Source: Desulfolithobacter dissulfuricans (lineage in GTDB: Bacteria > Desulfobacterota > Desulfobulbia > Desulfobulbales > Desulfobulbaceae). From it: DNA of 64,000 bases. Positions 39,669-64,000 of the stretch are shown here, piece by piece (position 1 is the stretch's first letter; each line of letters begins with the position of its first letter). The DNA lies in assembly GCF_025998535.1 (NCBI RefSeq), contig NZ_AP024233.1, forward strand, positions 310,001 through 374,000, written 5' to 3'. The translations under genes and the position numbers were made by a program. Below the pieces are notes generated by a model. That model did not search any database and was not told the origin of the DNA. It saw nothing but the letters and a program-made list of their open reading frames with translations.

Positions 39669-41156
39669 TTATTTTTCTACCATCTCGTCCGCCAGGCCTA
39701 CCCATCCTCCACCCATGGCTTTGTAAAGCTTTATGAGAGCGGCGTAAATGTTGCTTGCTGTCTGTACATGTTTGATTTCGGCCGAGTAAAGGCGTCTCTG
39801 GGCATCCAGCACGGTAAGGTATCGCAGATATCCTGTCTCGTAGCGGATCCGTGAGAAGTTTTCATAGTCCTTCAGAACCGCTATGTATCGTTGCAGCTCG
39901 GTATACTGTTCCTTCTGTTTCTGAAGATAGATCAGTGAATCGTTGACTTCCCTGAAGGCCGTCTGCACGGTCCACATGTAGTCGTTGAGCACCTGACGGT
40001 AAACGGCGTGCGCCTGCTGAAGCTCGCCGCTGATTTTTCCTCCTGTAAAAAGAGAGCCGGCAATGTCCGAACCAATGCTCCATACGTTGGAAGAACCGGT
40101 AAGCAGTTCGGAAAGTTCCTTGCTCACATAGCCCAGTAAACCGGTCAGCGAGATCGAGGGAAAGTATTTTGTCCTGGCGATGCCGATGCGGGCGTTCGCC
40201 GCGACAAGATCCTGTTCTTTCTGCCGAATATCAGGGCGCCGCGAAAGAAGATCCGAGGGCAGGCCGGCCGGGACATCCGGCGTGCCGAGGGATTCCAGCG
40301 AGCGACCCCTTGGAATCCGGCCTGGATTGAATCCGCACAACAGGCTGAGGTAGTTTTCCTGAATAGAAATCTGGTATTCTATTTCAGGAATCAGCACTTT
40401 GATTTCTTCGTACGAGGAAAGAACCTGCGCCAGCTCAAGGTTGGATATCTGTCCTTTTTCCTTCTTGATCAGGTAAACATCAAGTAATTCTTTCCTGGAC
40501 TTGAGGGTATCGCGTGAAACCTCGAGTTTTTTAACCAGGGTCAACAGGTTAATATAGTTCAATGCTACATCGGTGGTCAGACTCATCACCACAGCCTTGC
40601 GGTTTTCTGCCGCCGAAAGTAGCTGCGCCCTTGCCTCCTCCGTGGACCGGGCGATACGGCCCCATAGATCGAGCTCCCAGCTGACCGGAAGTTGCAGGAG
40701 ATAGTTCGACGAAATCCTGTCCCCTCCTATAACTGTCAGGTCTCCATTCCCGCTTTTCTGCTGTCTTGAAGCCCGGGCATCGTATCCGAGCTGGGGATAC
40801 TTGAGCGCGGTTGTCGAACGCAGCCGTCCCTGCATCTCGTCGACCCGGGCAACAGCGATTTTCAGGTAGTGATTGTTCCTGAGCGCAGCGGTTATCAGAT
40901 CATTGAGCACAGGATCCTGGAACTGTTCCCACCATTTTTTTTCAGAAGCTTCGAGATTTGTAGGCAAAGTTGTCCGCCATCCGTCCGGTGAGGAAACGAC
41001 CGGCGGCTTGAAGTCTTCAGTTACGGCGCATCCCTGCAGACAACAGGTCACCAGAAAGATGATGACCGCCACCACGGTACCTTGCATGCCGATCGGCTGA
41101 TGGCAGGGGATGGTCGAGAGGCTGCCTGGCAGGGACAGTGGATACTTGCGTAACAT
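39669..41156 (-). CDS. OprM/NodT-type outer-membrane efflux lipoprotein
   Basis: An outer-membrane channel subunit of the TolC family, about 495 residues from ATG 41156. A lipobox (CLQGC) near residue 42 makes it a lipoprotein like OprM. Two OEP repeats follow, with the long coiled-coil alpha barrel and SWELDLWGRIARSTEEARAQ typical of NodT. In-frame ATGs at 41192 and 41087 are also possible. It is the last gene of the long operon and could partner the HlyD-domain protein four genes upstream or the MacB-type exporter. Confidence 0.9.
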   Translation of the reverse strand: MLRKYPLSLPGSLSTIPCHQPIGMQGTVVAVIIFLVTCCLQGCAVTEDFKPPVVSSPDGWRTTLPTNLEASEKKWWEQFQDPVLNDLITAALRNNHYLKIAVARVDEMQGRLRSTTALKYPQLGYDARASRQQKSGNGDLTVIGGDRISSNYLLQLPVSWELDLWGRIARSTEEARAQLLSAAENRKAVVMSLTTDVALNYINLLTLVKKLEVSRDTLKSRKELLDVYLIKKEKGQISNLELAQVLSSYEEIKVLIPEIEYQISIQENYLSLLCGFNPGRIPRGRSLESLGTPDVPAGLPSDLLSRRPDIRQKEQDLVAANARIGIARTKYFPSISLTGLLGYVSKELSELLTGSSNVWSIGSDIAGSLFTGGKISGELQQAHAVYRQVLNDYMWTVQTAFREVNDSLIYLQKQKEQYTELQRYIAVLKDYENFSRIRYETGYLRYLTVLDAQRRLYSAEIKHVQTASNIYAALIKLYKAMGGGWVGLADEMVEK

Positions 41157-41161
41157 ATTAA

Positions 41162-42109
41162 TTATTTGGTGAATTTTTTTGCAAAATTCCATGCAGCCTC
41201 GCTGGCGGAAATATAACGGCCGTCTTCCGGGGTATTGCGCCGCCCATGGCCGCCCGGCCAGACATGCTTGCCGTTCTTGATAGTGATAAGCTCAAAGGGG
41301 GCGCCACTGGTGCAGGTATAAGTAGTATGCTTGATCACACCGTGGAGGATTTCCACTTTGGGTGGGGCGCAGTCCCTGGTTGCCGTCATCATCCTGACGG
41401 TTTCCTCGACCGAACGATGACGCACTCCTGCCCTGCTGTTGTGACCCATACCCCCTTTATAGGGAACATTGTCATCCATTTCTCCGTGGATGTGGAGTAC
41501 AGCAACCTGGTTGGCCTTGTCACTGCAACTGTCAACTGCCAGCGTACCTGATACAGCGATAATGGCGGTAATTTTCTCCGGAATTTCGCAGGCCAGTCGG
41601 TATGCCAGCATGGCACCGTTGGAAAAGCCGGCCACATAGACCCGCCGGGGATCGATACCATACTCGCGCTGCATTTTGTCTATGAGATTGGAGATAAAGG
41701 CGACGTCATCCACATTGAAACGGACTGCGGGACCACAACACGACCCGGCATTCCAGGTTCTCCGGTTTTTAACCTGTCTCCGCATGGCATATCTGGGGCC
41801 GGTGCCATTTGGATAGACAACGATAAATCCCTCTTTGTCAGCCACGTTGTCCATACCGCTGGTCCGTTCCATGGCGGCGGCATTGCCAAGCCCTCCATGG
41901 AGAACGATCATGAGAGGCGGTGCCTGGGACGTTGTCGCAGATGAGGGTTTGTAGACGATGAAACTTCGGGTTTCACCGTCGACAAGCATTTGCAGGGATT
42001 TTTTTTCCGCCACACCGCCGTTCCCGGAGCTGACAGTGGCGGCACAACCGGTTGTACTCGTGATGAGAAGAGCCGAGATCAACATGACGGTCCTGAAAAA
42101 ATACGACAT
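41162..42109 (-). CDS. Lipoprotein esterase, PHB depolymerase/LpqC-like
   Basis: A 315-residue alpha/beta hydrolase. From ATG 42109 it has a signal peptide with a lipobox (TTGC), then VLHGGLGN (oxyanion region), nucleophile elbow GFSNGAM, Asp in HGEMDDNVP and His in GKHVWPGG. This is the PHB-depolymerase / feruloyl-esterase-like family LpqC. Anchored in the envelope, it could release or trim an ester-linked acyl product. Its stop is 5 bases from the next gene's start. In-frame codons upstream to 42163 are less likely. Confidence 0.87.
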   Translation of the reverse strand: MSYFFRTVMLISALLITSTTGCAATVSSGNGGVAEKKSLQMLVDGETRSFIVYKPSSATTSQAPPLMIVLHGGLGNAAAMERTSGMDNVADKEGFIVVYPNGTGPRYAMRRQVKNRRTWNAGSCCGPAVRFNVDDVAFISNLIDKMQREYGIDPRRVYVAGFSNGAMLAYRLACEIPEKITAIIAVSGTLAVDSCSDKANQVAVLHIHGEMDDNVPYKGGMGHNSRAGVRHRSVEETVRMMTATRDCAPPKVEILHGVIKHTTYTCTSGAPFELITIKNGKHVWPGGHGRRNTPEDGRYISASEAAWNFAKKFTK

Positions 42110-42169
42110 GGTACTGTTCTCCGAATTTTGATTATATTTTTCATCGCAAGGTGGTCTGCGCACGCCATT

Positions 42170-42592
42170 TTACTCTTCCTGCGAACTGAGATAATCGAGA
42201 AACGCATCCTCTATCTCCTTTATCTGGGCAAGTTCGTTGGTCAGTTCCTTGCAGATGGCTTCGAACCAGCGGATAGACGATTCAATTTTTTTTCGTTCAG
42301 CGATGATTTCGTGAATCGGCGCATTGGCCGGGAGTCGGCCTTTCTCGTCGAAGAAAAACTGGATCGCCTCCGCCACCTGGCGGTTGAGATTGACATATTC
42401 GATCTGCTCTTCGATAAAGCTTCTGACCTGGGCAGAACGAAAGCGGGTTATCGTTGCTTGCCTGAGGGCTTTGAGGGACTCGGGCAGATCGTCCGGTGTA
42501 CTGGTGGTGCTTTCCGGGTCGGTGTCGAGCAGACCGATGGGTTTTCTGGTGCCTGCTTTCAGCTGGTGCTCCGGTTGCTTGTCGTTGGTCAT
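42170..42592 (-). CDS. Hypothetical cytoplasmic protein of the lipid operon
   Basis: A 140-residue protein with no recognised domain. The first 45 residues are polar and disordered; the rest is predicted helical, with heptad-like repeats near the end (ERKKIESSIRWFEAICKELTNELAQIKEIEDAFLDYL as one long helix region, about 98-135). It is between the sulfotransferase and the esterase on the same strand, with short gaps, so it belongs to the operon. A scaffolding role is possible but unsupported. Confidence 0.7.
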   Translation of the reverse strand: MTNDKQPEHQLKAGTRKPIGLLDTDPESTTSTPDDLPESLKALRQATITRFRSAQVRSFIEEQIEYVNLNRQVAEAIQFFFDEKGRLPANAPIHEIIAERKKIESSIRWFEAICKELTNELAQIKEIEDAFLDYLSSQEE

Positions 42593-42670
42593 GTCAGGAA
42601 AATTTTCCTCTGGGTTCCCTGTGTTGGTTCATGAAGGAATGTTACTGTACGGATCGCGGACCGCTATCTG

Positions 42671-43579
42671 CTAGCAGTAGCCGAAGGAGCGGGCCAGTTC
42701 CGCGACTTCCGGGTAAAGTTGTCCGCCGTCGTCTCTCCAGGGAAGCGGACCTTCCAGGGGTGGCGGTTTCGGCTTGTGCTGGCGGAAGCTGGGGCCTCGG
42801 AGAAAGTTGGGATCATTTCCGTACAGGGCATTTATAGGCCCGAAACAGGCAAACGGCGATCGCTCCGGATGCATCATCTCGTCGATGGCCGCGTCGTCGT
42901 CACGAATTTCCAGCCATTGACAGATCTGGCGGAGATACCGGACCGGCTGTTCCATCAGTTTTTCTCCCTGCAGGCGCATCTTGTTCCTTTCAGGCACCAT
43001 GTCCAGAAAATTCATAATGGTGATGTTGATATTGTACCACGCGATCTGCGGTTCGATGATGGCCCTGTCTCCCCGGAATTCCAGCGCGTTGACCCAGAGG
43101 GCGAAGATGCCGTCGTTGAGTTTCATCACCGATTTGCACTGGGCGACGGGATGGCGGAGCAGATGGATGAAACGAGCATCGGGAAATGTTTCCAGTATCC
43201 TCTGCAGGTAGCGAAGCGAGAGGGAATACAGTGGACTTTTCTCGACAATGATGAGCGGATCGAGCTTATCGGCCAGTTCCCTGTAGACTTCTCCGGAGCT
43301 ACGTTCCTGGCGGGCGGCAGCCCAGTGATTCGCCATGTGTACTGTGGCGGCGGTCTGCTCGCCACCATATATTTCGGCCACGGCCCGCAGAAGGCCGTTT
43401 CTGCGCTTTGGTTGCGTTACATTGTCTGTGGGCTTGCGACGCCACAGATCCTTGAGGTGTTCAACATTGAAAAGGTTGAGTTCCGGCAGACCGAAAGTCT
43501 GCGGATGCTGACCTATCATGGCGTTGATAACCGAAGTGTAGGATCGTGGCGGGGCCAGCAGAAAAAGTGGAGGTGCCAT
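42671..43579 (-). CDS. Sulfotransferase family protein
   Basis: A 302-residue PAPS-dependent sulfotransferase. The 5'-phosphosulfate-binding loop is APPRSYTSVINAMIG (about 9-23), a variant of the usual PRSGTT, and the 3'-phosphate-binding strand is RFIHLLRHPVAQCKSVMK (about 136-153). The usual C-terminal region follows. It would transfer sulfate to a hydroxyl or amine, here plausibly on the lipid or polyketide made upstream. It is 10 bases from the phosphatase-like gene. Confidence 0.85.
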   Translation of the reverse strand: MAPPLFLLAPPRSYTSVINAMIGQHPQTFGLPELNLFNVEHLKDLWRRKPTDNVTQPKRRNGLLRAVAEIYGGEQTAATVHMANHWAAARQERSSGEVYRELADKLDPLIIVEKSPLYSLSLRYLQRILETFPDARFIHLLRHPVAQCKSVMKLNDGIFALWVNALEFRGDRAIIEPQIAWYNINITIMNFLDMVPERNKMRLQGEKLMEQPVRYLRQICQWLEIRDDDAAIDEMMHPERSPFACFGPINALYGNDPNFLRGPSFRQHKPKPPPLEGPLPWRDDGGQLYPEVAELARSFGYC

Positions 43580-43589: not shown

Positions 43590-44405
43590 TTATTTCAGAC
43601 CTTCCACAAACGGAACCTCGAAACACTTTTCGTGCATCACCGGACCGTGGCCGAAATAGCCGTCCTCGCCAAAGAGCTCACCATGGTCCGAGGTGACGAT
43701 AAACCAGGTATTCCCGGGTGCCTTATCCATGAGCCTCCCGATCTGCCCGTCCAGATACTCGACGCATTTGACCTGCTGCCTGTGCAGCATTTGCATCTGT
43801 TCCGGATCAAAGAATTTTTCACGGGAACCCTGTTGCCGGTCCCTGTTGTCCAGGGATTTGAAGACCCCGTGGACGCCGGAGATATGAGGCAGTTGGTCGT
43901 CATTGAGCATGTACGGATAATGCGTCTCCCCGAGATTGAGGAAATAGTAGTGCGGCTGGTCCGGGTTGAACTCCATTTCGTCGATCATGCCGGAGAAATC
44001 ATTGTGGTTCTCCATGAGCTTGTAATCGTCAAAGTCGCGGCTGATCAAGGTGAATTTATTCAACACGGGCAGTGAAACACGGGCAACGGTTCTGTAGCCC
44101 AGTTTCCTCAGGACCAGCGGCAGGGAAATTTCCGGTAGAAAGTCTTTAAAGGAAATATCGGGCAGCCCTGTTCTGTCTGTCCATAGAACGAATTCTTCCT
44201 TGTACACTGTGGAGGCGAAGACGCCAACCGGGCTGGTATGCGGCATCATCCCCATGGTAAAGGCGTAGTGGGATGGCGCTGTCCAGGAGGCATAGCTGTA
44301 CCGCTTTTCAACAGCTCCGAGGCGGTCGATATTGGGTGTGTCCGCCATCGTGAAAGTGTCGTAGCGACAACTGTCCATGATGATAAATACAATATTGTTT
44401 GCCAT
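43590..44405 (-). CDS. Sulfatase-like alkaline-phosphatase-superfamily protein
   Basis: A 271-residue protein from ATG 44405 (IVFIIMDSCRYDTF). Metal-binding features of the superfamily are present: the Asp in IIMDSCRYD, the TPNIDRLG segment and the C-terminal TSDHGELFGEDGYFGHG. The nucleophile position reads WTAPSH, with Thr where true sulfatases have the formylglycine Cys (CxPSR). It should therefore act more like a phosphatase or phosphoethanolamine-transferase-type enzyme than a sulfatase. No signal peptide is seen. It is shorter than most sulfatases (about 450), so it may be a trimmed form. Confidence 0.82.
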   Translation of the reverse strand: MANNIVFIIMDSCRYDTFTMADTPNIDRLGAVEKRYSYASWTAPSHYAFTMGMMPHTSPVGVFASTVYKEEFVLWTDRTGLPDISFKDFLPEISLPLVLRKLGYRTVARVSLPVLNKFTLISRDFDDYKLMENHNDFSGMIDEMEFNPDQPHYYFLNLGETHYPYMLNDDQLPHISGVHGVFKSLDNRDRQQGSREKFFDPEQMQMLHRQQVKCVEYLDGQIGRLMDKAPGNTWFIVTSDHGELFGEDGYFGHGPVMHEKCFEVPFVEGLK

Positions 44406-44476
44406 GATACTATCCAGGGAAAATGTAATGGTAACGCTCTCGGCCGTCTCCATGGCCGACCGGAACGGGTAATTGC

Positions 44477-46846
44477 CTATGGCAGCCAGGACCACACTTC
44501 TATTCTCGCAAATCTCCTCAGCCCCATGGACAGGATGTTCCACAGGGGAAGTTCAGAGCTCTGTATCTTGGCGTAGCCTGTCATGCCCGATTTTATGGCG
44601 CCGTCGTGATTTTCCAACCTAACCATAACGCTTATGAATTTTCCGAACTGCTCTTCTGTGACGTCGGGCCCAATGTTTGTAACTGTGCCATGAAATTCCA
44701 TATTTTCATAGGCCAAAGGACGGAGCTCGGCCTCTGCACCGGTTTGGACGAAATCTATGTCAACCTCGGGGATATTGATCTGGGCAGTCACGCTCTCGGT
44801 ATTTTCGGCCAGAGCAAAAGGCTCTCCTTTCTCAAGAAAACTGCCGATTTTCTGCTTCAGGTGCAGGGTGGTCAGTGTGCCGGTAAATGGCATGCGCAGG
44901 ACAGCCTGGTCGATCAATCTCTGGTAGTAGTCGCGCATTTCCTTGAACCGCTGCAGCTTGGCAGTGGCTGCCTCAAGTTCTTCGGGAGCAACACCGGCAT
45001 CGGTCAGGGCCAGATTGGCGGTGCGCTCTTCTTCCTGCATCTTGTCAACATTATACTGTTTTTCTATATCGGCAAGCTCTTCCAGGGAAATAGCCTCTTT
45101 CTGGAACAGTTCTCTTGCCCGCTGTAATTTTGCCTCGCTGAATCTGACCTTGGTCTTTTCGACCTCAAGACTTCTCAGAGCCAGGAGGTGTTCTTCCGGA
45201 CGGGGCTTGGCTTTCATGTTCTCGATGATTGCCGCCTGTTCCTTCACCTTGTAGGCATACAGGTTTCGCTGGTACTCGAATTCAGAGGAGTCAAGAACCG
45301 CGATGGGCGTGTCGGCGGTAACCGTCTCTCCGCCGTTGAAATACACTTCCTTGATGATGCCGGGATAGTTCGAGGTGATCTCCTGCTGTTTGCCGGGGAT
45401 GATGACGAAGTTTCCGCCCGGATTGTACCTGCAGGGCACCATCAGCAGTAGAGCGGTTATGAAGACGATTGAAGTCCAGACCACCGACCTGGTGATATTT
45501 CTCTGGCGACCGGGGACGATACTGTCACTGTTGTCAGGAGCAAGGCGCTTTCGCCATCGTTCAAATTGAACGGTGCGTTCGTACTGTTCGGTTATTTTCT
45601 TGAGCTGTCGCCATATTCTGTAACAGACAAACAAAAAGAGAACGGCTGTTACGATTATTCCGGCTGGTCCTATCTGTATCTTGAGGATGTGACCGACAAA
45701 GTACACGCCGACGGTAATCACCGTCAGCAGGCAGAGTATGGACAGCAGGGCATAGGCGCTGAGAATGGTGTTGTCCGCCGAGGTGTAAACCCGTCCATGC
45801 AGTTTGTTCAGCAGGGTTTTGTACGCCTTTTCCTTGAGATACGGTTCGTTGGCAAAGGCCGATAACAGATAGTAGCCGCTGCTCTTTATAAGAGGGTTGG
45901 CGGTAATGAGGAAAGATACACCACTGATCGTGGCCAGGGAAAGCCCGAACAATGATTGCCCGGTCCCCTGTCCCCTGGTGATGTACCACAGCAGGATGCC
46001 GAGGCTGAAGAGGGCGATCCGGACCACGAGGGGAGTGGCATGCAGCCATATCCGTTCACGCCTGCTGAGCTGCTGAACATGGCCGATCCGGAGCATGAAC
46101 CGGGGCAGGAAGAAGAAATAAAAAACAAGGCAGACGGCATGTACAGTGGCGCGAAAGGAATGGGCCACGAATGCGGTTGTAACCGTCACAGCGAGGTTCA
46201 CTGTGATCATGCCCAGGAGGATGTGCTCCAGAAAGGTGATATTATCGAGTACAAAGCCGATATCGTGTTCGATCAGGACAAAGTATTTCGTCGCGATATA
46301 GAGCGACACAAGAAAAAGGGTCGGCAGCAGATAGATAGAGTACCGTAGAGGTGCGACAATCGGTGCCAGTATCTTGAGCAACGGACCGGGATCGAAAATC
46401 TTGAATCCCCGGAAGGCGACAGTATCGTCCATGCCGGCGACATCCTTGATTCCGGCCGGCAATTCCTCGTCGGAAACCGTTTTTCCGGTACTCGCGGCGG
46501 AAGCCTGGCTCCCCTTTCTCGTCTTTAACTCCTCAAGGATAGGATGAGAAAAGGCCTGTATCCTGAAAAGCTTTTTTTCTTCGATTTCATCGAAGAGTTT
46601 TTCGGCCTCGTCGATGGTGAGTGGTCGGCCGAATCGGTCTTCGAATACAGAGGAAAGTTTTTTGAAGTCCTCGCAGCCGACCAGCACCTCGAGGACGAAA
46701 AACTGCCAGGGTTCAAAATAGTGAGACTGCCGTGTGTTCTTGTCCCGTATGATATAGGTCTGTTGCTGCCCGTCATCGACCCGGAAGGCCTGCAGGTGCT
46801 TTTTCAGCAGTGCGGGAACAGCAACTTTTTTCGCTTCTTCACCCAC
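44477..46846 (-). CDS. PqqD-like / M50-like membrane core / HlyD adaptor fusion
   Basis: A 789-residue membrane protein. Residues about 20-95 look like a PqqD-type winged helix (PWQFFVLEVLVGCEDFKKL). About 160-410 hold several helices resembling M50 membrane metalloproteases, with NPLIKSSGYYLLS as the counterpart of the usual NPLLRxDGYY. The HExxH motif is missing: AHSFRATVHAV is in its place, and the Asp of the second motif is replaced. After a further helix (about 453-470) comes a HlyD barrel-hairpin-barrel adaptor with a coiled coil (about 520-640). It probably spans the inner membrane and contacts the OprM-type channel. GTG start after AAGGA; overlaps the propeller gene by eight bases. 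Confidence 0.82.
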   Translation of the reverse strand: MGEEAKKVAVPALLKKHLQAFRVDDGQQQTYIIRDKNTRQSHYFEPWQFFVLEVLVGCEDFKKLSSVFEDRFGRPLTIDEAEKLFDEIEEKKLFRIQAFSHPILEELKTRKGSQASAASTGKTVSDEELPAGIKDVAGMDDTVAFRGFKIFDPGPLLKILAPIVAPLRYSIYLLPTLFLVSLYIATKYFVLIEHDIGFVLDNITFLEHILLGMITVNLAVTVTTAFVAHSFRATVHAVCLVFYFFFLPRFMLRIGHVQQLSRRERIWLHATPLVVRIALFSLGILLWYITRGQGTGQSLFGLSLATISGVSFLITANPLIKSSGYYLLSAFANEPYLKEKAYKTLLNKLHGRVYTSADNTILSAYALLSILCLLTVITVGVYFVGHILKIQIGPAGIIVTAVLFLFVCYRIWRQLKKITEQYERTVQFERWRKRLAPDNSDSIVPGRQRNITRSVVWTSIVFITALLLMVPCRYNPGGNFVIIPGKQQEITSNYPGIIKEVYFNGGETVTADTPIAVLDSSEFEYQRNLYAYKVKEQAAIIENMKAKPRPEEHLLALRSLEVEKTKVRFSEAKLQRARELFQKEAISLEELADIEKQYNVDKMQEEERTANLALTDAGVAPEELEAATAKLQRFKEMRDYYQRLIDQAVLRMPFTGTLTTLHLKQKIGSFLEKGEPFALAENTESVTAQINIPEVDIDFVQTGAEAELRPLAYENMEFHGTVTNIGPDVTEEQFGKFISVMVRLENHDGAIKSGMTGYAKIQSSELPLWNILSMGLRRFARIEVWSWLP

Positions 46847-48326
46847 GTTGTTCGTTTCCTTGTCTAGTTTTCATCGGTTGATATTTTTCTGGCCCCAAGA
46901 AAGATTTCGCATCCCCCCGGGGATTGCGAACGTATTTATGCCCCCCCAGGGGCATGACCTTGGGACCGAATGGATTTGCCGTTCCGAGAAACAATCCCGC
47001 AGGAGAGGCCACCATGGTCCGTAAACCGATATTGTAGGGGTTGCCCATGCCATTGGTTGTTACCGGGATCCAGTTCTCCCCGTCAAAAGAACGAAAAAGA
47101 TCGAACCCGGCATGATTGTCGATAATGAATCTTTCGCCCAGTTCATTAACAATATTGACAAAACTCTGCGGCCAGCTTTCCCTTCTGGCATAGGGTATCA
47201 TGATACTCCAGTCAAAGGTGGACAGGTATAGCCAGTCATCATAGGCGCACATTTTCCAGAAGTATCCGTTGAAAAAGTTGTCAAATCCCGACAGGTATCC
47301 GGAGAGAGGATATTTGTGGCCATCCGGTGTGTCCCTTTCCTCACCGACGATCAGGTCCCAGGAGCCGTCGGGATGAATCCGGATGAGCTCGGGAGGGGCC
47401 GGACCGATATTGTTCTGCCTGTCGATTCCTCCGCCCTGAATGGCGCTGCCGACATAAAGGGCCCCCTTGAAGGGATACATGCTCAGAACGCATTGGTTAT
47501 GTTTGCCGCGGTAGGCCCCTTTTTCGATGATCCGTTCCCAGCGGTAAGGCGGTTCACCCTCGGCGTCGGTTCGCCAGACCTGATAGCCTTCCAGGTTGAA
47601 GGTGCCGACATAGAGATAGTCGCCAAAGCCTACCATTTCAAAAACAGTCTTGTTGCCGATATCTCCGAAGCCGAAATCGCTCACCGGTTCCCATTGCCCG
47701 GCGGCCGGGTTCCGGCTTTCGTACACAATGGAATGGGACGAGGTATTGGGGTTGCCTCCTCGGGCGCCTGCCGGAGTCGTGTAGAGTCGACCCTTGAAGG
47801 TGGCCAGGGTTCTGATGGTGGTTACCGGCAGGCCGATCAGGCCGGGTTCGCAGCTTATGTCGAAATTCCGTCCATCTTCAGTCCGCAGGAGTACCGGGCC
47901 CCGGCCCTTTGCCGGTGACCAGGTGGCCACGTAGAGGGCCGGTGGATTTTCCTCTTCGTTGACCACCATTCCCCTGTAGCCCAGTTCCCTGGGGATGGGT
48001 TTGCCGTGGCTGCCGGTGATGACCGGTGATTTGAAAACTCTCTCCCAGGTATCGGTACCGGGATCATAGCGCCAGATTTCAGCCCGCAGGTCAAGGTCGA
48101 AGGGTTTTTCCGGGCATTCCACCGGCCAAGGGTCCAGGGCGATGGGCAGCCGCGCCTTCATGAGGGGAAAGTTTCCCCTGGTCGTCGCCACGTACAGGTG
48201 CCCGTTGAACCAGGCCATGGAGTGGGCGTAGGCGTTGAGACCGTCGCCGAACCCACCATAGGCGATAAGACGGAAATCCTGTTGTCGCAGGCCGGGATGA
48301 ATGCCGAGCCGATGGTAGTCAGTCAC
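46839..48326 (-). CDS. Seven-bladed beta-propeller protein, unknown function
   Basis: A 495-residue protein without a signal peptide or recognised family. Seven strand motifs of the type xLYVxT occur along it: GHLYVATTRGN, ALYVATWSP, RLYTTPAGA, YLYVGTFNL, ALYVGSAIQ, WLYLSTFDW and GLFLGTANPFGPK. That spacing fits a seven-bladed propeller with one strand pattern per blade. Propellers are usually binding platforms or enzymes. It overlaps the PqqD/HlyD fusion gene, so the two are probably translated together. The GTG start has only a weak ribosome site. Confidence 0.75.
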   Translation of the reverse strand: MTDYHRLGIHPGLRQQDFRLIAYGGFGDGLNAYAHSMAWFNGHLYVATTRGNFPLMKARLPIALDPWPVECPEKPFDLDLRAEIWRYDPGTDTWERVFKSPVITGSHGKPIPRELGYRGMVVNEEENPPALYVATWSPAKGRGPVLLRTEDGRNFDISCEPGLIGLPVTTIRTLATFKGRLYTTPAGARGGNPNTSSHSIVYESRNPAAGQWEPVSDFGFGDIGNKTVFEMVGFGDYLYVGTFNLEGYQVWRTDAEGEPPYRWERIIEKGAYRGKHNQCVLSMYPFKGALYVGSAIQGGGIDRQNNIGPAPPELIRIHPDGSWDLIVGEERDTPDGHKYPLSGYLSGFDNFFNGYFWKMCAYDDWLYLSTFDWSIMIPYARRESWPQSFVNIVNELGERFIIDNHAGFDLFRSFDGENWIPVTTNGMGNPYNIGLRTMVASPAGLFLGTANPFGPKVMPLGGHKYVRNPRGDAKSFLGPEKYQPMKTRQGNEQRG

Positions 48327-50897: not shown

Positions 50898-50907
50898 GGT
50901 AGCTCCT

Positions 50908-51189
50908 TTATACCCTCTGTGCCACATAATCGGCGATCTGGCTGACCGTCAGGTCAGATACATAACTTCCGTCTTCCATCAGCAGGGACTGAAAGCCTAT
51001 TTTTTTGCCGTAGAACTGTTCAATAGCGACACACAGCTGGATAATATCGACCGATGCGAAATCAAGGTCTTCGACCAGGGACGTCCGGCCCGATATTCCA
51101 TCGGCCAGGTCAAGTCCCCAGTCCTGAACAAGATCCTCGATTATTTCAATCAGTGATTTTTCGACGTTTTCTCTGTTGGTAGATGACAT
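50908..51189 (-). CDS. Stand-alone acyl carrier protein
   Basis: A 93-residue acyl carrier protein. The phosphopantetheine site lies in VEDLDFASVDIIQL (Ser about 46), and helices before and after fit the four-helix fold. It should carry acyl groups as a thioester for the synthase next to it, and would be activated by the phosphopantetheinyl transferase encoded 107 bases upstream. The DFASVD motif is a variant of the common DSLD. The ATG follows AGGAAGGAA. The 51190-51296 gap has no gene; it contains a weak TACAAT -10-like box. Confidence 0.9.
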   Translation of the reverse strand: MSSTNRENVEKSLIEIIEDLVQDWGLDLADGISGRTSLVEDLDFASVDIIQLCVAIEQFYGKKIGFQSLLMEDGSYVSDLTVSQIADYVAQRV

Positions 51190-55900: not shown

Positions 55901-56008
55901 CCTGAGGATATTGTTCCAGAAGGACTTGAGGTCCGGAGCCTGGGGAAAGATACAGGCCATGCCGATGATGGCCACCGCCCCGTTTGTTCTGTTACTGTCT
56001 CGTGACAC
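52910..56008 (-). CDS. Ketosynthase-acyltransferase megasynthase subunit
   Basis: A 1032-residue KS-AT protein. The ketosynthase (about 10-455) has Cys in DAACSSS (about 209), His in EAHGTG (about 344) and His in ISHCIPAAGIAG (about 384), so it is catalytically complete rather than a chain-length factor. The acyltransferase (about 570-890) has GHSTGES (Ser about 676). The last 100 residues are Ala/Pro/Gly-rich and lose all similarity, which suits either a linker or a wrong frame after a missing base (52990-52994). The GTG start overlaps the stop of the large synthase by 17 bases. Confidence 0.9.
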   Translation of the reverse strand: MSRDSNRTNGAVAIIGMACIFPQAPDLKSFWNNILRAVNAVDDPVPGWEAQRYIESGRIHTARGGYLKDLYRFDPRPSGIMPRSLDGGEPDQFLALRVAWEALADAGYLGDEHDHSQTGIILGHSTYLHRGQVNMVQHHIVLDQTLELLEAFYPDLTPAQKEKIRKTLEARLPQSNTDIYPGLVPNVMTGRIANRLNLKGPNYLIDAACSSSLLALNAAIEELRSNRSRLMLAGGVNASLPAEVAIIFTELGALSRKGRVCPFAADADGTLLGEGLGIVALKKLEDALEDGDRIYALIRDIGQSSDGRGQGLLAPSVEGETLAIERAYSSCRVDPETVRLIEAHGTGIPLGDRTEIKALGNVFGQRRGQLAHIALGSVKSMISHCIPAAGIAGVIKTALALHHRILPPTICDRVNPELNIETTPFYINTSVRPWISKPELVRRAAVNAFGFGGINTHAVMEEAPAVARRPDTLSRWPWELFVFSAPDRDTLSGKLQDLLEQLDTDTGQEIDSIAATLALEDEAQSYRLGLVASDRQDLSRKIQSALKNLADRRTEESWTLRNSISFGSRPLNGKLAFMFPGEGSQYLEMLADLAIHFDEVREWFDCWSGIYDDGDMSRTDILFPPPGESGEKMRAELEERLHSMDTGSEAVFIGSQALFTLLEHLGVKADMMVGHSTGESSALVASGAIKASSKSTLANLIKELNLVYQEVQAAGDVPTGALLAVGALSRETVLQCLEKAPGDPVIAMDNCASQVILFGDRDTIAAVQEDLVRQGGICILLPFDRGYHTPRFAAVSKAFRKYYDQVQLGAPKIPLYSCATADLFPDDPAAARELAASQWSTTVRFTETVRRMYDAGARCFIEVGPSANLSAFVNDILKGKDAVALPLNIRKKNSLQQFLTVLAFLFANRVDMDLGNLFRSRSTARNPDKEQDSARGMVLDNTMPVIHLDQHDVSILRSTVFAAQPRGDSGDNGIPVPGTAFCAGPAATAAGTPSLPGSAGDWGARPQWTRGMSNSMKDNPLTTRYPLPFLTS

Positions 56009-59000
56009 GGGCAGTGCCTCCCAGACGGTTTAACTCTTTGCTTGATACGCAGTTGAGATCCTCTATCTTCAGGACCACCCTTCCTTCGCTGTCGGTGAAA
56101 AGCACATCGGCCGATATCATGCTGGGCTCCGGAGTCTCTCTCCGGCGAAACTCCATGGACAGTTTTGGCGGCAGCCTGTCAACATACCTTGTGATGCGGC
56201 CAAACCGCACCGGCAGGGCTGATTCGCCCCGGAACATTCTCGCCCACAGCAGGCCCATCTGCGGTGCGGCGTCGAGCACTGCAGGATCAAGGATCCACCG
56301 GTTGTCCCGCTCCGGGATGCCTGAGAGCCATTCTCCGGGCTCGCTGGGGCGCAGTTCGGCCAGCGCACCTTCAGACGACATTCCATGGATGGTCTCGATG
56401 ACCTGGAACACGGGTCCATGAAAGAGCCATTCGTCGTATGCCTTTGCAACCGACAGGCTTTTTTCCCGGTAGTCGTCTGTCGTGTGGGTGGTGTCCGGCA
56501 TTGCAGGCAGTTCCCGGGCGAACCGTACCGTACATCGGTAGTGGATGACCTGCCTGCCATTGTCCCCCTGCGAGGTGAGAGCGGCCGTTACGGTAACGTT
56601 ATCCCCGTCTCTTTCGCCAGGGTCGAGTTCAAGCACTATCTCCTGGTCCTGAGCGGTGATTTTGATTCCATTCAGAACCCGGAGGTCATGCAATGCAACA
56701 ACCTTTTGTTCAGGGTAAAGCAAAGAGGTCCCTTCGGCGATTATTTCGGCCGCAGCGGCAGCCGGCAGGACTGGAATATTGTCTATCCTGTGTTCGTCAA
56801 GATATCGGTGCCTTCGTCCAAGCAGGATATGAGTCTTTATCTTTCGCTGGTCTGAAGGCGGAAAAGTTTCTGTTGGACTGAAAAAGGGTGTGGGATGATT
56901 TTTCGGAAAAATTTTTCCTTTTTCAGCTTCATGTTCTTCCCATTTCCCCTGCCCGCAGATGATTTCCACCGCAGGGTCATAGGATACCAGAACCTCGTCC
57001 GCGAAAAGTTTTCGTCCCTGGTCACTCTGGACCAGTACCACTCCCTTTTCCAGGAATTTTTTTTCAGTCTCAGGGGTTACCATCCCGGAGCCGTACCTGG
57101 TCGGTCCCCAGGGGCCCCAACAGAGAGCTTTGATGGTGACCTGCTGCGGCCATATCCTCCGCAGCTGGCAACATATCCTGTTCATCAGTTCGTTGGCCGT
57201 GGCATAGTCTGTCTGGCCGGAGTTTCCGTATCTGCCGGCCACTGAACTGAAAACGGTAAAAAATTTCAATGACTCCGGGCGGATATATTTCTGCAGCAGC
57301 ATCAGTCCGATTACTTTTGTCTCAACCACCCGGGACCAGCTCTCCGCAGTTTTATCTTCCAGCAATTTGTCTTCTATTACACCGGCACCGTGGACGATGC
57401 CGTGGATGGCGCCGTATTTTTCGTACAGGTTTTCAAAAAGTGTTTTGACACCATTTTCGTCGGTGATATCCAGCTGGCAGTAGATTACTTCCGCTCCCTT
57501 TGAGCGGAAATCCTCCATGTTGGCGAGCAGTTCTCTGTCCGATAAAATTTTCATGGCCCGGCGCCTGATTTCGGCTGGTTTGAGATCAAGCCTGCCTGTC
57601 CGGACCTGTTCTATGAAATAGCGTTGGATGTCGGCCAGGGATACAAGTTTTTTCAGTTCTGCCGGTTCCTCCTCCGGCAACCCGGAGCGTCCGGCTAACA
57701 CCAGTGTGTTGCCCGGCTGCGCCAGGACTCTCAAAGTTTCCGCGGTGATACCTTTTGCCCCGCCTGTGGCGAACACCACCATGTTTGCCGGCATGCCACC
57801 CTCATGTTCCGGGATGGCGGCCGGGACTGTTTTGAAAATTGTCCGTTCGCCCCGGGGATAGCCGACCTCCTGCCGTCCTCCTACGAGTTCGGTCTCTGCC
57901 AGTACCAGTTCCGCCATTCGGGAAGGTTCCAGGTCAGGATCCAGATCAATCGCCTTGAGTCGGAAATTCGGCTTCTCCTCCAGAAGGGACTTGATAAGGC
58001 CGACAGCGCCCCCCTGCAGGGAAAGTCCCTCGTGCGGCACCGCGAGGCGGCAGAAGGAACCGCCAAGACCGCTGACTGCGACGATATGGGCATTGTCGTG
58101 CAGGAGTGACAAAGTCCGATGCACCAGCAGGAAAAATGATTTTTCGCTGGTGAAAAGTTCTGCCCGCCACTGGTCGGATTTCGCCTCCGTGGGTAGCCAC
58201 GGCGCCGAAACCGGCACCGCATGGATTATACCGGCAAGCTCTCCGGCGGGTACTGTCAGGGCGGCACACCACTGTTCAAGGCTCTGTTCGTCCTCCAGGA
58301 CCTGGCGCGGGAGCAGGATCGGCTTGCAGCCCTTAGCGGACAGCAAGCCCTCCAACTCGCCGGCGAGCCCCATGTCATCCTCGGTGATTATAAAAAAACC
58401 GGTCGTCAGATGGGTTGCCGCTTTCCCATCCAGGGGCTCGGCCACAGGTTCGATGATATACCGGGACGGAAGGTCTGCGGCCAGGACCTCCTGCTCCGCC
58501 CCGGTCTGATCAAAAGGGCGCGAATCCTCCCCCTCTGTCAGCAGGATATCAACCATACCCTTCAGGGTCGACTGGGTGTTCAGTTGTGAGCGTTCTTCCT
58601 CGCCCATTGACCGGACCCGATCCTCGGGCAGAACCTTGAGCAGTTCTCCCACAATTTCAACCCGCTTGATGGAATCAATTCCCAGATCCGCTTCCAGGTT
58701 CTGTTCCAGTCCTATCATATCTTGCGGGTATCCGGTTTTCTCTTCGACGATTTTCAGCAGGGTGGCCGTGAGCTTGTCCCGGTCCATCATTCCGGTCTGG
58801 GCAGGGGTGGGCTGCCTGTCATCACCGCTTTCCCGGCTGCTTCCGGGCTGGAGGTTATCATCGGTGGACGCCGGGGCCGGTTTGCCAGCCATGTCCTCCC
58901 TGGGGGGCTGGCTTTGGGCAGCGGGTTCCGGGCCGGTCCGGGCCTGCGGAGACCCGGCAGCCGAGGCGGCTGAAGGGGGGGATGGACGCCGGGGCACGCG

Positions 59001-62000
59001 GAGGGTATGGGAGCGGCGCCGAACCGGCGTGGCGCTTCCTCCTCCCTGCAGATACATCGACATGACCCGTTCCTGTGTCTCAAGGAACTGGCGCATCATG
59101 TCGAGATAATTTTCCATCAACTCCGCGTGGTCTGCGGAGTCGCCGTGGTGTTTATCCATATCTGGAGTCTCCTTTTTGGGCAGAAGTTGTTCTTTGTTTG
59201 ATTCCTCAAGAGAAACCAGGTCCTCAACCGTCACGCCAATCTGGCGGACAGGCTCATTGATCCGTCTCGCACCGCTGCCGTTGAGCAGCCACACATGATC
59301 CGGCAGAGGACGGTGTCTGGAAAGAGAAGACACGTCCAGGGGATCTCCGATCAGGCAGTCTCTACCTTTGAAAAGCGGGGTCAGGTCGACCTGGTGACCG
59401 GCACATATCAGCCTGCCAAGCATGTGCAGAAAACCGGGAAGACCGGTTCCCTTGTCCTCGGATGAGATGATGTTGCATGGCGCATCCTCCAGGATCTTTT
59501 CAGTCAATCCGCCTAGAATTGATTTCGGTCCCAGTTCCAGAAATGTCCTGGCTCCGTCTGCATACATACTCTTTATTTCCGTGACAAATTCCAGCGGGCT
59601 GGCCAGATGCCTTGTCATTGTGGCCTTGATGGTTTTCACATCATCCGCATGTGGCCTGCCCGTGGTGTTGGAATAAACGGGCATGGTGCCTGCCGTCCAG
59701 TCCGTCCGGTCGATCACAGCGGAAAATTCGCCGGTTACTCCTTCGATCAACGGCGAGTGGAAGGCGGCCGAGACCGGAATCATGACGCTTCGGATCCCGG
59801 CATCGCTGAATTGTTCCACCGCCTTCTTCACCTTTGCGGTCGGGCCGGAAATCACGCTTTGCAACGGAGCATTGTGGTTGGCGACCACCACCTCCCCGAC
59901 ACTGGCCAGGATTTCCTCCACCTGTTCCCGTGGGGCCATGACGGCGGCCATGGTTCCGGTCTCCCTGTTTTTTCTCCCGATGTCGGCAATGAGTCGGCCT
60001 CGACTGACGGAAATATGCATGAGTGTTTCAAAATCGATTATGCCGGCGGCGAACAGGGCCACGAATTCACCGTAACTGTGACCGCCCGCCATGTCGGCAG
60101 TCAGGCCAAATTCTCCCATCAGGAGCCACAGGGATGATTCCACTGCCCCGAGAGCTGGCTGGGCAATGTCGGTGGAGGTGATTTTCCGGGCAGCATCTTT
60201 TTGGGAGGCTTCATCGTAACACCCCCTTGGAAAGATGAAATGACTCAGAAGGTTGCCGGGAGCAAACCGGTTTGCGAAATCGTCCCTGGTCACGGTGTCG
60301 GCCTTTGCCAGCGTGTCGGCGACCAGGGGAAAGTGGAGGGCAAGTTCCCGCAGCATATCGGGATACTGAGCCCCCTGACCGGGGAACAGGACCGCGAGTT
60401 TTCCTCCCCTGGTCATGAGACCGCTGTGATAAATTCCCGGGCCAGGATCGTCCCGCCGGCCGCCGAGATATTCCGATGCCTGGGCGAGTTTGGGTCCCAG
60501 GTCGGAAGGATCGGTGGCGATGATCGCCATCACTTCCCCATCAGGAGCCCGGCGGGCCGCAAGGCTGGCGGCCAGATCCCGCAGTTCCACCCGGGAGATG
60601 GCGGCAGCATCCTTTACGTTGTTGATCTGCGTCAGAAGCTCTTGTCGGTCACCAGCGCTGAAGATCAGCAGTTCACAGGGCCAGTTGTCCCGGACAGACT
60701 GGAAGAGCCAGGGCCGGTATTCCTCCGAGTACTCTTCAAGCACAACGTGAAAATTTGTCCCGCCAAAACCAAAGGCACTGACTGCTCCCCGGCGGGGATG
60801 ACCGGCTGATCGGAGCCAGGGTCGGGGTTTGTCGGGCAGGTACAGTGGGGCGTCGTTGCGGAGAAATATCTCCTGCGGCCGGCTGACGCCGCTGTGTGGG
60901 GGCAGGACGCGATGGTGAAGGGCCAGAACAACTTTGAGCAGGCCAGAAATACCGGCCGCCGCTTTTGTGTGGCCGATCAAGGTTTTGACCGAGCCAATGG
61001 CTGCCTGCGCAGGTCCGGCCCCGTGTTGTTTCAGGAGAGTGGTCGTGCTCTCCAGTTCGGCCAGATCACCGATTGCTGTACCCGTGCCGTGTGCTTCAAA
61101 CAGCTCGACCGATTCAGGCCCGAAGTCCAGGTGTTCGTAGGCACGTTTCATCGCTCTCAGCTGTCCGGCCGGCAGAGGAGCGGTCAGTCCTTTGGCCCGT
61201 CCGTCACTGCCGCCACCGACGCCCTTGATGACCGCGTAAATCCTGTCTCCGTCGCGCTCCGCATCCTCCAGCCGTTTCAGTGCCACCATGGCAATGCCTT
61301 CCGAGATGACGATACCATCGGCGAACTCGTCAAAGGTCTCGCATCTGCCCCGCGGAGACAGGGCCTGAGTCTTGCTGAAGCACATGTAGCCAAAAGGTCC
61401 CTGGACTGTATCGACCCCGCCGGCCAGGACCATGTCGCTGCGTCCGGTCAGAAGTTCCATGGCTCCCTGATAGATTGCAGCCAGAGAGGAGGCGCAGGCG
61501 GCATCTGTGGTGAAATTGACCCCATGCAGGTCGAGACGGTTGGCAATCCTGCCGGCAATCACGTTCAGCAGCAGGCCGGCAAAGGTATCCTCGGTCCATT
61601 CGGGCAGCCGCCGGGCAATGTCTTCGGGAAGTTTTCCATGAAACCTGGGTAATTCAGACCTGAGACCATACTGCATACCCACATCGCCGGCGCCACCGCT
61701 GGCCCCTATGATTACGGATGTTCTTTCCCTGCAGAACGGTTTCCCCGGATATCCCGCATCTTCCAGGGTCTGCCTGGCGATTTCCAGGGCCATAAGCTGC
61801 ATGGGATCCACATGGTTGATGGAATTGGGCGGCATGCCGTAGCGGGAGGGATCAAAGGGAAGATCCTCCAGGAAACCTCCCCAGCGTGAATAAATTTTGT
61901 CTTTTGCGTTTCTGTCGTTGTCATAATACAGACGCCAGTCCCACCGATGGGCCGGTATTTCGTCAATGGCGGTTTGTCCTGTCAGGATGTTTTCCCAGTA

Positions 62001-64000
62001 TTTTCTGGTGGTCGTTGCCCCGGGTAGCAGGCAGCCGAGGCCAATTATGGCGATGTCAAGGGGGCTGCTTGCCCTGGTTTTCAAGGGGGCTGGTTTTGGC
62101 AGCCGACCTTCGAGGAGTCTGATCGCCTCCTGTGTCACTTCCCGGTGAAGGGTGGCAATGTCGGTTGGACGGTCACGCAGGATCGCGACCTGGCCGACCA
62201 TGTACATTCCTTCTTCCTTTTGCCTCGTTTCATCAAGTTTACAAAGAGAATCCGATTCGTCCAGTCTTCCGCAACCTTTGGAGGCGATTCTCAGCCGGCC
62301 CAGGACCAGGTCGTCCAGTATGCGCCGGATTTCCTCCGGGGATTTTTTTTCCCTCTGAAGCTGACGCTGCTTCTGGAAAAAGTACCTTGCAAACCCAGTT
62401 GCAGCGCACCTGCTGGCATGACCCGGACCTGTTTCCAGGCTTACCGTCTGATTGCACTCTATCACCTGGTCCTGAAATGTTTTGACCAGTGCCCTGGAGG
62501 AGACAATCTCTTTGGTGAAGAGGTAGGCGCTTCCCATCAGAATGCCGATTTTCACGCCCCTGTCGACAAGTGGCGCTGCCATCACCTGAACCATTGCCGA
62601 CGAGAGTGCGTCGTGGATGCCCCCGGCAAAAAGTATCTCGACGCTCTCCGGAAGAATTTTCTGTTCCGTCATCTCCCGCTGGAGACGTTCAATCATGGAA
62701 CTCCACAGGACCAGGCTGTTGACCGGTCCGATGTGACCGCCGCATTCACGTCCTTCGAATATGAAACGGCGACAGCCCTCCCGGAGGAAAAGAGCCAGAA
62801 GCTCCGGCGCCGGGATATGCAGGAAGGCATGTATCCCCTCCTGTTCAAGACGGACAGACTGTTCGGGGCGTCCGCCGGCGACAACAGCGTATCCTGGACG
62901 GTATTTACTGATCAGGGTAAGTTGTTCGTCCAGCAGCTCTTTTTCTGCGAATCCCAGCAGGCCGACACCCCAGGACGCCTCGCCAAGCAGCGTGGCTGTC
63001 TCCGAAAGAAGGGTCTCCAGCGGTTTACCGCGCATGAGGGCCAGTCCCAGGACAGGCAGACCGCCACCCCTGGATACAGCCGCGGCGAATTCGGCCCGGT
63101 CCGAGACCCTGGCCATCGGCCCTTGAACAACGGGAAGCGGTGTGTTGAGAGATCGGGCCAGGGGAGAGTTTTCGTCCAGCGGCTTTTTGGCGACCGCTAT
63201 GTCAAGACTGGTGGCCACCGCCTTGTCCACCTCCCTGAAGAGGGCCGACAATACGCCGTATCTTTCGCGCCATGGTCCGGCGAAACAGATGTCCTGACCC
63301 ACAGGAAAAAGTCCAGAGGAGGGCTGGAACCAGTCTGAACGGCTGCGGACCAGTTCGGCAAGTTCCGGCAGCGGCCTGCCCGCAGCCTGGTCGATGAATG
63401 CGAGGACTGCTCCGCCGGCGCCCGGTCTGCGCAGCAGGCGGAAGAAACGGCCGGTTTCGTTGTCGCCCACGGCCACCGTCTCGTTCCCGGAAAGGCCCTG
63501 CAGCAGAGGTTTCAACTGCAAGGCAAGGGGAGATTCCTCCATGAGCAGGATCTGACTGTCGAAGACCCCACCGGCAGCACCAAGGGCAGCGGCCGCGGCG
63601 GCGACCGAGGGGGTCAGTCCACCCCGGATTAAAACAGGCACATCGCTCTTCCTGAGCCATTGCTGCAGGAGGATGAAGGTTGAATTTTCACCCACAAAGC
63701 CTCCTGCCTCGTTACCCTTGAGAACAAGAGCATCTATGGCAAGATCTGCCGGCCTGTCGGGCCAATGGCAGTTTCTGGTTTCTACCAGGACCTTGATACC
63801 ATCATCGCGCAGTTTTTTGATTTTGTCCGCCGGCGGGAGAGTCTCGGAATCCACGATCAGCCACCGCAGGCCACGGCTCGTGTATTCCCGGGCCAGGTCA
63901 AGCAGGTCGGCTTCGGCGGTGTCAAGTTTCAGTCCGAACTCGGCCGATGTCTTTGCGGAGATGAAGTCAAGCTGGCGGGCAATGGTCCCGGCCGTGTCCG
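55992..64000 (-). CDS. PUFA-synthase-like megasynthase (NMO-KS-AT-ACP-KR-DH), 5' partial
   Basis: The frame is open to the window edge, so the N-terminus is missing. At least 2,668 residues remain. Numbering from the GTG at 63854: two nitronate-monooxygenase-type (PfaD-like enoyl reductase) regions (about 1-200 with GNEAGGFVG, and 225-500 with GRECGGHIG); a KS (600-1040; Cys 787, His 922, His 962); an AT (1150-1480; Ser 1260); a Pro/Ala-rich linker; one ACP (about 1690-1770; Ser 1728 in GIDSIKRVEI, the form seen in PUFA synthases); a KR (about 2025-2260; TGGAKG, Tyr 2217); and a C-terminal double-hotdog DH (His 2355, Asp 2528). It would build and reduce an acyl chain. It is the first visible gene of the operon. 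Confidence 0.93.
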   Translation of the reverse strand, partial: DTAGTIARQLDFISAKTSAEFGLKLDTAEADLLDLAREYTSRGLRWLIVDSETLPPADKIKKLRDDGIKVLVETRNCHWPDRPADLAIDALVLKGNEAGGFVGENSTFILLQQWLRKSDVPVLIRGGLTPSVAAAAAALGAAGGVFDSQILLMEESPLALQLKPLLQGLSGNETVAVGDNETGRFFRLLRRPGAGGAVLAFIDQAAGRPLPELAELVRSRSDWFQPSSGLFPVGQDICFAGPWRERYGVLSALFREVDKAVATSLDIAVAKKPLDENSPLARSLNTPLPVVQGPMARVSDRAEFAAAVSRGGGLPVLGLALMRGKPLETLLSETATLLGEASWGVGLLGFAEKELLDEQLTLISKYRPGYAVVAGGRPEQSVRLEQEGIHAFLHIPAPELLALFLREGCRRFIFEGRECGGHIGPVNSLVLWSSMIERLQREMTEQKILPESVEILFAGGIHDALSSAMVQVMAAPLVDRGVKIGILMGSAYLFTKEIVSSRALVKTFQDQVIECNQTVSLETGPGHASRCAATGFARYFFQKQRQLQREKKSPEEIRRILDDLVLGRLRIASKGCGRLDESDSLCKLDETRQKEEGMYMVGQVAILRDRPTDIATLHREVTQEAIRLLEGRLPKPAPLKTRASSPLDIAIIGLGCLLPGATTTRKYWENILTGQTAIDEIPAHRWDWRLYYDNDRNAKDKIYSRWGGFLEDLPFDPSRYGMPPNSINHVDPMQLMALEIARQTLEDAGYPGKPFCRERTSVIIGASGGAGDVGMQYGLRSELPRFHGKLPEDIARRLPEWTEDTFAGLLLNVIAGRIANRLDLHGVNFTTDAACASSLAAIYQGAMELLTGRSDMVLAGGVDTVQGPFGYMCFSKTQALSPRGRCETFDEFADGIVISEGIAMVALKRLEDAERDGDRIYAVIKGVGGGSDGRAKGLTAPLPAGQLRAMKRAYEHLDFGPESVELFEAHGTGTAIGDLAELESTTTLLKQHGAGPAQAAIGSVKTLIGHTKAAAGISGLLKVVLALHHRVLPPHSGVSRPQEIFLRNDAPLYLPDKPRPWLRSAGHPRRGAVSAFGFGGTNFHVVLEEYSEEYRPWLFQSVRDNWPCELLIFSAGDRQELLTQINNVKDAAAISRVELRDLAASLAARRAPDGEVMAIIATDPSDLGPKLAQASEYLGGRRDDPGPGIYHSGLMTRGGKLAVLFPGQGAQYPDMLRELALHFPLVADTLAKADTVTRDDFANRFAPGNLLSHFIFPRGCYDEASQKDAARKITSTDIAQPALGAVESSLWLLMGEFGLTADMAGGHSYGEFVALFAAGIIDFETLMHISVSRGRLIADIGRKNRETGTMAAVMAPREQVEEILASVGEVVVANHNAPLQSVISGPTAKVKKAVEQFSDAGIRSVMIPVSAAFHSPLIEGVTGEFSAVIDRTDWTAGTMPVYSNTTGRPHADDVKTIKATMTRHLASPLEFVTEIKSMYADGARTFLELGPKSILGGLTEKILEDAPCNIISSEDKGTGLPGFLHMLGRLICAGHQVDLTPLFKGRDCLIGDPLDVSSLSRHRPLPDHVWLLNGSGARRINEPVRQIGVTVEDLVSLEESNKEQLLPKKETPDMDKHHGDSADHAELMENYLDMMRQFLETQERVMSMYLQGGGSATPVRRRSHTLRVPRRPSPPSAASAAGSPQARTGPEPAAQSQPPREDMAGKPAPASTDDNLQPGSSRESGDDRQPTPAQTGMMDRDKLTATLLKIVEEKTGYPQDMIGLEQNLEADLGIDSIKRVEIVGELLKVLPEDRVRSMGEEERSQLNTQSTLKGMVDILLTEGEDSRPFDQTGAEQEVLAADLPSRYIIEPVAEPLDGKAATHLTTGFFIITEDDMGLAGELEGLLSAKGCKPILLPRQVLEDEQSLEQWCAALTVPAGELAGIIHAVPVSAPWLPTEAKSDQWRAELFTSEKSFFLLVHRTLSLLHDNAHIVAVSGLGGSFCRLAVPHEGLSLQGGAVGLIKSLLEEKPNFRLKAIDLDPDLEPSRMAELVLAETELVGGRQEVGYPRGERTIFKTVPAAIPEHEGGMPANMVVFATGGAKGITAETLRVLAQPGNTLVLAGRSGLPEEEPAELKKLVSLADIQRYFIEQVRTGRLDLKPAEIRRRAMKILSDRELLANMEDFRSKGAEVIYCQLDITDENGVKTLFENLYEKYGAIHGIVHGAGVIEDKLLEDKTAESWSRVVETKVIGLMLLQKYIRPESLKFFTVFSSVAGRYGNSGQTDYATANELMNRICCQLRRIWPQQVTIKALCWGPWGPTRYGSGMVTPETEKKFLEKGVVLVQSDQGRKLFADEVLVSYDPAVEIICGQGKWEEHEAEKGKIFPKNHPTPFFSPTETFPPSDQRKIKTHILLGRRHRYLDEHRIDNIPVLPAAAAAEIIAEGTSLLYPEQKVVALHDLRVLNGIKITAQDQEIVLELDPGERDGDNVTVTAALTSQGDNGRQVIHYRCTVRFARELPAMPDTTHTTDDYREKSLSVAKAYDEWLFHGPVFQVIETIHGMSSEGALAELRPSEPGEWLSGIPERDNRWILDPAVLDAAPQMGLLWARMFRGESALPVRFGRITRYVDRLPPKLSMEFRRRETPEPSMISADVLFTDSEGRVVLKIEDLNCVSSKELNRLGGTARVTRQ

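Follow-up and report, generated by a model that had tools for sequence, protein, structure and literature searches.

A widespread gene cluster that joins a very probable Type O secondary lipid synthase to a sulfotransferase and export genes in Desulfolithobacter dissulfuricans

Overview

A stretch of 64,000 nucleotides from Desulfolithobacter dissulfuricans (the window; G000:C1:310001-374000, from a single-contig genome of 3.6 Mb) carries a form of an already noted, uncharacterised type of lipid synthase that is equipped with a sulfotransferase and export genes and, in several hosts, with adjoining genes for PAPS supply. The core of the synthase very probably corresponds to the Type O secondary lipid synthase that Shulse and Allen listed in 2011, with its product unknown, for Gloeobacter violaceus, Dinoroseobacter shibae and Parvularcula bermudensis (PMC3098273); the match is made through the organism, and the text of their paper mentions neither a sulfotransferase nor a HlyD gene. 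The open-licence literature leaves the cluster undescribed beyond this Type O entry and a 2025 statement that the product of an hgl island in G. violaceus is unknown (PMC11804610). A sequence-only reading of the window had claimed that no described locus holds this combination, which, given the very probable Type O core, was too strong. What is new is the dedicated sulfotransferase, the PAPS genes beside the cluster in several hosts and the replacement of a phosphodiesterase by an ACP-sulfotransferase fusion in two genera, and the synthase family of 2011 proves to sit within a broader conserved set of genes that brings its own sulfotransferase, supply of the sulfate donor and export functions.

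Layout of the cluster

The cluster comprises 13 minus-strand ORFs at window positions 39669-64124, in which neighbours overlap or are spaced by about -97 to +107 bases; the start codon of the megasynthase lies at 64124, 124 bases past the window edge. This agrees with the earlier count of at least thirteen same-strand genes with short gaps or overlaps, none of which exceeds about 110 bases. Pfam and NCBIfam scans confirmed the domain content of the synthase, the ACP and the tailoring and export proteins, and gave only a sub-threshold match for the propeller. The genes are as follows:

55992..64000 (start at 64124), minus strand: iterative megasynthase, PfaA/PfaD-like, 2710 aa (domain matches, catalytic motifs)
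52910..56008, minus strand: KS2-AT, 1032 aa (KS and AT active-site residues present)
51297..53006, minus strand: DH and 4'-phosphopantetheinyl transferase (PF14765, PF01648; GVDFE and WCAREAASK motifs)
50908..51189, minus strand: free ACP with FASVD serine (NCBIfam ACP 1.4e-5; Pfam PP-binding only at E 0.026)
49293..50927, minus strand: alkaline-phosphatase-superfamily enzyme of the type I phosphodiesterase class (PF01663)
48375..49286, minus strand: alpha/beta hydrolase, candidate thioesterase (S99, D123 and H268 invariant)
46839..48326, minus strand: beta-propeller, the cluster marker (sub-threshold Kelch match and AlphaFold model)
44477..46846, minus strand: inner-membrane protein with HlyD/RND adaptor C-terminus (domain match)
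43590..44543, minus strand: second alkaline-phosphatase-superfamily protein, STM4013-like (domain match, WTAPSH motif)
42671..43579, minus strand: sulfotransferase PF13469 of the CurM/OLS neighbourhood (domain match; E33 invariant)
42170..42592, minus strand: small protein of no known family, kept beside the sulfotransferase in several hosts
41162..42163, minus strand: PHB-depolymerase-like esterase with lipoprotein-like signal (sequence scan)
39669..41192, minus strand: OprM/TolC-type outer-membrane efflux lipoprotein (domain match)

Distribution and synteny

A profile search with the propeller retrieved 53 named loci, the hosts of which are Desulfobulbaceae, Pseudomonas alcaligenes, Rubrivivax, Neptuniibacter, Rhodobacterales, Verrucomicrobia, Myxococcota and cyanobacteria, and the gene order is mostly alike. 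Within the phylum the propeller is rare, occurring in 10 of 395 genomes. Among named relatives, the cluster of a Desulfobulbaceae MAG is the nearest, and related clusters at about 44-48% occur in three genomes of the same family or order (G004, G015 and G032). Where the DH-PPTase, ACP, phosphodiesterase, hydrolase and propeller genes are all found, they stand in identical order on one strand in 23 of the 27 loci, which indicates more clustering than expected by chance, and mapping on the 53 loci places the KS-AT just ahead of this run. The HlyD-type protein is present in 29 and the sulfotransferase in 19 of the 33 full-length loci, and OprM is above threshold in only 6; the position of the sulfotransferase and export genes varies within the cluster, or they are placed away from it. 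The proposal that these genes form one synthesis, tailoring and export cluster is upheld by this conservation of the neighbours with the synthase across the 53 loci, the synteny by which it was to be checked.

Furthermore, several proteins of the Desulfobulbaceae clusters are 60-79% identical to those of Pseudomonas, Neptuniibacter or Rubrivivax, and from these cross-host identities we infer that this widespread cluster has probably moved horizontally. A DNA-pattern scan of the named genomes with the DH-PPTase protein returned nothing, and a plasmid search with the propeller returned no match. As candidate exporter, the ABC-transporter genes at 35535-37476 were rejected, since they were above threshold in 0 of the 53 loci. 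The hosts include the culturable Pseudomonas alcaligenes, Rubrivivax gelatinosus, Neptuniibacter and Tritonibacter, which makes the question of the product directly testable.

A Desulfobulbales subtype (L017/L023, L018/L022, L067 and L069) retains the synthase, phosphodiesterase, hydrolase, propeller and HlyD protein, with short-chain dehydrogenases replacing the sulfotransferase; some of these loci also carry CoA-transferases, methyltransferases and a B12-radical SAM protein, and in the cases read (L017:14455-16950 and L022:2957-5419) the propeller continues into a C-terminal methyltransferase domain. Because this sulfotransferase is missing from the subtype, sulfation is not universal, and the core would make the chain while the tailoring would differ by host.

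The sulfotransferase and its PAPS supply

Could the product of the cluster be a sulfated lipid? This idea, raised as a possibility in the sequence-only reading, is strengthened by a whole-genome search, in which 26 of 30 propeller-bearing genomes have the sulfotransferase, and by the sulfate-donor genes that adjoin the cluster in several hosts. Where genomes with large contigs were compared, the sulfotransferase shares a contig with the synthase. CysD and CysNC adjoin the block of esterase, small protein, sulfotransferase and alkaline-phosphatase-superfamily protein in P. alcaligenes and lie near the sulfotransferase in Rubrivivax, and homologues of CysD/CysNC are also within the loci of a Burkholderiaceae MAG and Aquabacterium. 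Similarly, an APS kinase adjoins the synthase in Fischerella; in the window genome, an APS kinase domain is found in a 569-aa protein outside the cluster. Several clusters (such as L054, L062 and G447:C12 659982-687327) contain 2-5 related sulfotransferase genes, which suits a sulfated, even multiply sulfated, product. The two further attributes proposed earlier did not gain in the same way, a phosphate-bearing product having only the enzyme superfamily as its basis and an envelope-directed one only the export genes.

With modest confidence, we lean towards a pathway in which the iterative synthase makes a long acyl chain, the hydrolase releases it, and PAPS-dependent sulfation and export complete the product. 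The NMO-NMO-KS-AT-ACP-KR-DH protein and the KS-AT-DH-PPTase protein would jointly form an iterative synthase using malonyl units and would hand the chain to the free ACP, from which the alpha/beta hydrolase, acting as a thioesterase, would free it. The PF13469 sulfotransferase would use PAPS to sulfate a hydroxyl of the chain, whether still bound or already released. Export of the sulfated lipid would fall to the HlyD-type membrane protein and the OprM-type channel, and the periplasmic lipoprotein esterase may work on the exported lipid. Underlying this scheme are the observed gene content, active-site motifs, synteny and co-location of PAPS genes in other hosts. The order of the steps, the substrates of the tailoring enzymes and the export of the product are as we propose them from these observations, and the same would apply to any roles given to the propeller and the two alkaline-phosphatase-superfamily enzymes.

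On the other hand, the sulfate might serve only as a leaving group, a reading that has some chance of being right but that we consider unlikely. In such a CurM/OLS-like release, a beta-hydroxyl would be sulfated on the ACP and the hydrolase would cleave the thioester, with decarboxylation and sulfate loss giving a sulfate-free terminal alkene. CurM and OLS are the nearest sulfotransferases of known function: they are the best solved relatives of the window enzyme (CurM, PDB 4gbm, E 1.7e-18; OLS, PDB 4gox, 6.7e-15), and OLS proteins from cyanobacterial genomes match it at E 1e-16 to 1e-22, whereas generic PF13469 proteins from the same order reach 8e-9 at best. However, at about 27% identity, the window enzyme belongs to a sister family of the OLS type. 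Its E33, the counterpart in the alignment of the glutamate in the OLS motif PELHL, does not vary among 19 homologues, and the region of R142-H-P and S150 is kept in most of them, but the PELHL histidine is mostly replaced by Asn or Cys in sulfotransferases of the window type.

The hydrolase gives a similarly divided picture. S99, D123 and H268 are invariant in 26 homologues and align with the triad of OLS thioesterases, sharing the Ser-His-acid layout with the acid after strand 6, but the match to the OLS thioesterase (E 7e-10) is no better than that to ordinary hydrolases. In contrast to CurM and OLS, the sulfotransferase and the thioesterase candidate of the window are free proteins, and none of the 13 genes encodes the fatty-acyl-ACP ligase loading domain of OLS. 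Moreover, a terminal alkene would need neither export machinery nor several sulfotransferases.

Exchange of the phosphodiesterase for an ACP-sulfotransferase fusion

A further point in favour of CurM/OLS-type chemistry comes from four genomes, three of Neptuniibacter and one of Ideonella, in which the phosphodiesterase gene is absent genome-wide; it is present in 10 other carriers at 42-66%. The same four genomes encode an ACP-sulfotransferase fusion (Neptuniibacter L028:17877-19196 and Ideonella L180:5977-7260, 53% identical to each other). In Neptuniibacter, the ACP part of the fusion is homologous to the free ACP of the cluster, and the sulfotransferase part, measured for this genus, is 38-47% identical to the OLS ones. 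Yet Neptuniibacter has this OLS-type fusion in addition to the sister sulfotransferase of the window type, and since the two coexist there and the window enzyme is the sister, we downgraded the view of the whole cluster as OLS-like. An OLS-type sulfotransferase was not seen in the searches made of the ten phosphodiesterase carriers.

These results, seen in two independent lineages, suggest but do not establish an exchange, in two genera, of the ACP and alkaline-phosphatase-superfamily enzyme for a fused ACP and OLS-type sulfotransferase. If the phosphodiesterase does fill the place of the ACP-bound sulfotransferase of Neptuniibacter and Ideonella, the family would hold two unrelated activation or release routes for the same ACP-bound lipid. 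The enzyme (PF01663) has a conserved Thr nucleophile and metal ligands, no signal peptide was seen, and a PDB sequence search found no relative at E 0.01. That it is a new chain-release or activation enzyme beside the ACP, and that the product is a new cross-phylum class of sulfated exported lipid, is a speculation to which we give a low probability, but the exchange marks the step worth first attention.

The synthase and its relationship to known lipid synthases

The megasynthase has the domain order NMO-NMO-KS-AT-ACP-KR-DH in the Pfam and NCBIfam scans, with the ER-like NMO-NMO portion at about residues 1-600, KS1 at 690-1129, AT at 1246-1552, a single ACP at 1788-1830, KR at 2118-2333 and DH at 2425-2697, and it contains the catalytic motifs DAACASS, EAHGTG, GHSYG, LGIDSIK, DYATAN and LDAAPQ. 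The domains expected of a PfaD/PfaA-like megasynthase are therefore present as first described, except that the 'PfaD' portion consists of two N-terminal NMO/FabK-like halves and the start of the gene lies outside the window. Active-site motifs are intact throughout: in KS1 and KS2, in both ATs and both ACPs, and in the KR and the PPTase. KS2 retains Cys-His-His and so is not a chain-length factor.

The functions listed in the first description were likewise found, but the second KS-AT and the DH-PPTase, there counted as two, correspond to one protein. In 31 of the 32 relatives checked, one ORF encodes both (about 1460-1680 aa when complete), whereas in the window (52910-53130) they lie in different frames with overlapping ends, the frame shifting in the linker, so that the pair is a split or frameshifted fusion. 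This reflects either a gene split or an assembly indel, and the window copy may be impaired if the change is real and damaging.

Is the cluster simply an ordinary Pfa-like PUFA synthase, the chain of which enters phospholipids while its neighbours are passengers? We regard this as improbable. The best NCBIfam model is indeed PfaA TIGR02813 (989.8 bits, below the cut-off of 1010.1), and the NMO-type ER, the KS-AT-ACP-KR order followed by a DH and a homologous KS1 recall Pfa types A/B. But the window has its DH in the first protein; instead of tandem ACPs, it has one PP-binding domain with one LGIDSIK site; and instead of the KS and chain-length factor of PfaC, its second protein has a single KS, with no further KS-like domain, both KSs of the cluster being of the Cys-His-His kind. 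In trees that included gammaproteobacterial PfaA-like, cyanobacterial HglE/type G and Gloeobacterales KSs, KS1 and KS2 each fall in a clade of KS domains from this cluster, and KS1 stands outside the PfaA clade, its own clade having support of 98/92 and 100/97. The conservation of the neighbours across phyla also speaks against passengers. Enediyne PKSEs have KS-AT-ACP-KR-DH-PPTase in one protein, whereas the PPTase of the window is on the other protein.

hgl islands also have two KS-AT proteins, and an Hgl-like pathway (HglE/HglC) shares with this cluster an iterative type I PKS, two KS proteins and an exported lipid. There is, however, little chance that a polyhydroxy fatty alcohol or glycolipid is made in this way and then sulfated, even if such an island, its product unknown, is said to be present in G. 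violaceus (PMC11804610): KS1 lies outside the HglE/type G clade with full support, the Fischerella genome has both kinds of KS, the window has a sulfotransferase where Hgl has a glycosyltransferase, and none of the 13 genes encodes a glycosyltransferase or an HglB-type ACP-thioester reductase. The KS phylogeny suggested as a check thus places the window domains within neither the Pfa nor the Hgl clades.

Two Gloeobacterales genomes, taken here as G. violaceus PCC 7421 and G. kilaueensis, carry the same core, and their KSs fall within both window clades. The presumed G. violaceus genome matches the window in the order of its synthase, DH-PPTase, ACP, phosphodiesterase and propeller genes, and differs in that its first protein has several tandem ACPs, compared with one in the window. 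Since the window KSs group with Gloeobacter and G. violaceus is listed as Type O, we take the core to be of this type.

Propeller and membrane-associated proteins

No protein of the cluster is better conserved than the propeller (68-79% to many hosts), which AlphaFold models as a clear beta-propeller (pLDDT 90); it has no signal peptide. The top Foldseek match was the hetero-Diels-Alderase EupfF (E 3e-9), but with a TM of 0.38, and the other structural matches were generic (WD40s, Z up to 28); we dropped the assignment of a function from the fold. Weak matches suggest a PqqD-like N-terminus and an M50-like membrane region in the inner-membrane HlyD protein. The second alkaline-phosphatase-superfamily protein has a WTAPSH site of the Thr/Ser type, where the sulfatase cysteine motif is absent, and its annotated start may be too early.

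Flanking genes

Just upstream of the cluster and outside the window lies a divergent pair (G000 375446-377866 = L014:5446-7866) encoding a lipoprotein-like esterase and a BNR propeller; one or both have homologues in the Fischerella, Westiellopsis, Verrucomicrobia and Rubrivivax clusters. Further upstream (L014:8362-15214), one minus-strand run encodes a PEP-CTERM protein, a family 2 glycosyltransferase, a TackOD1-domain protein and a HlyD protein. At the other end of the window, positions 1-1230 (open at the edge) and 2050-3318 hold two similar tandem ORFs for putative reverse transcriptases of the group II intron type.
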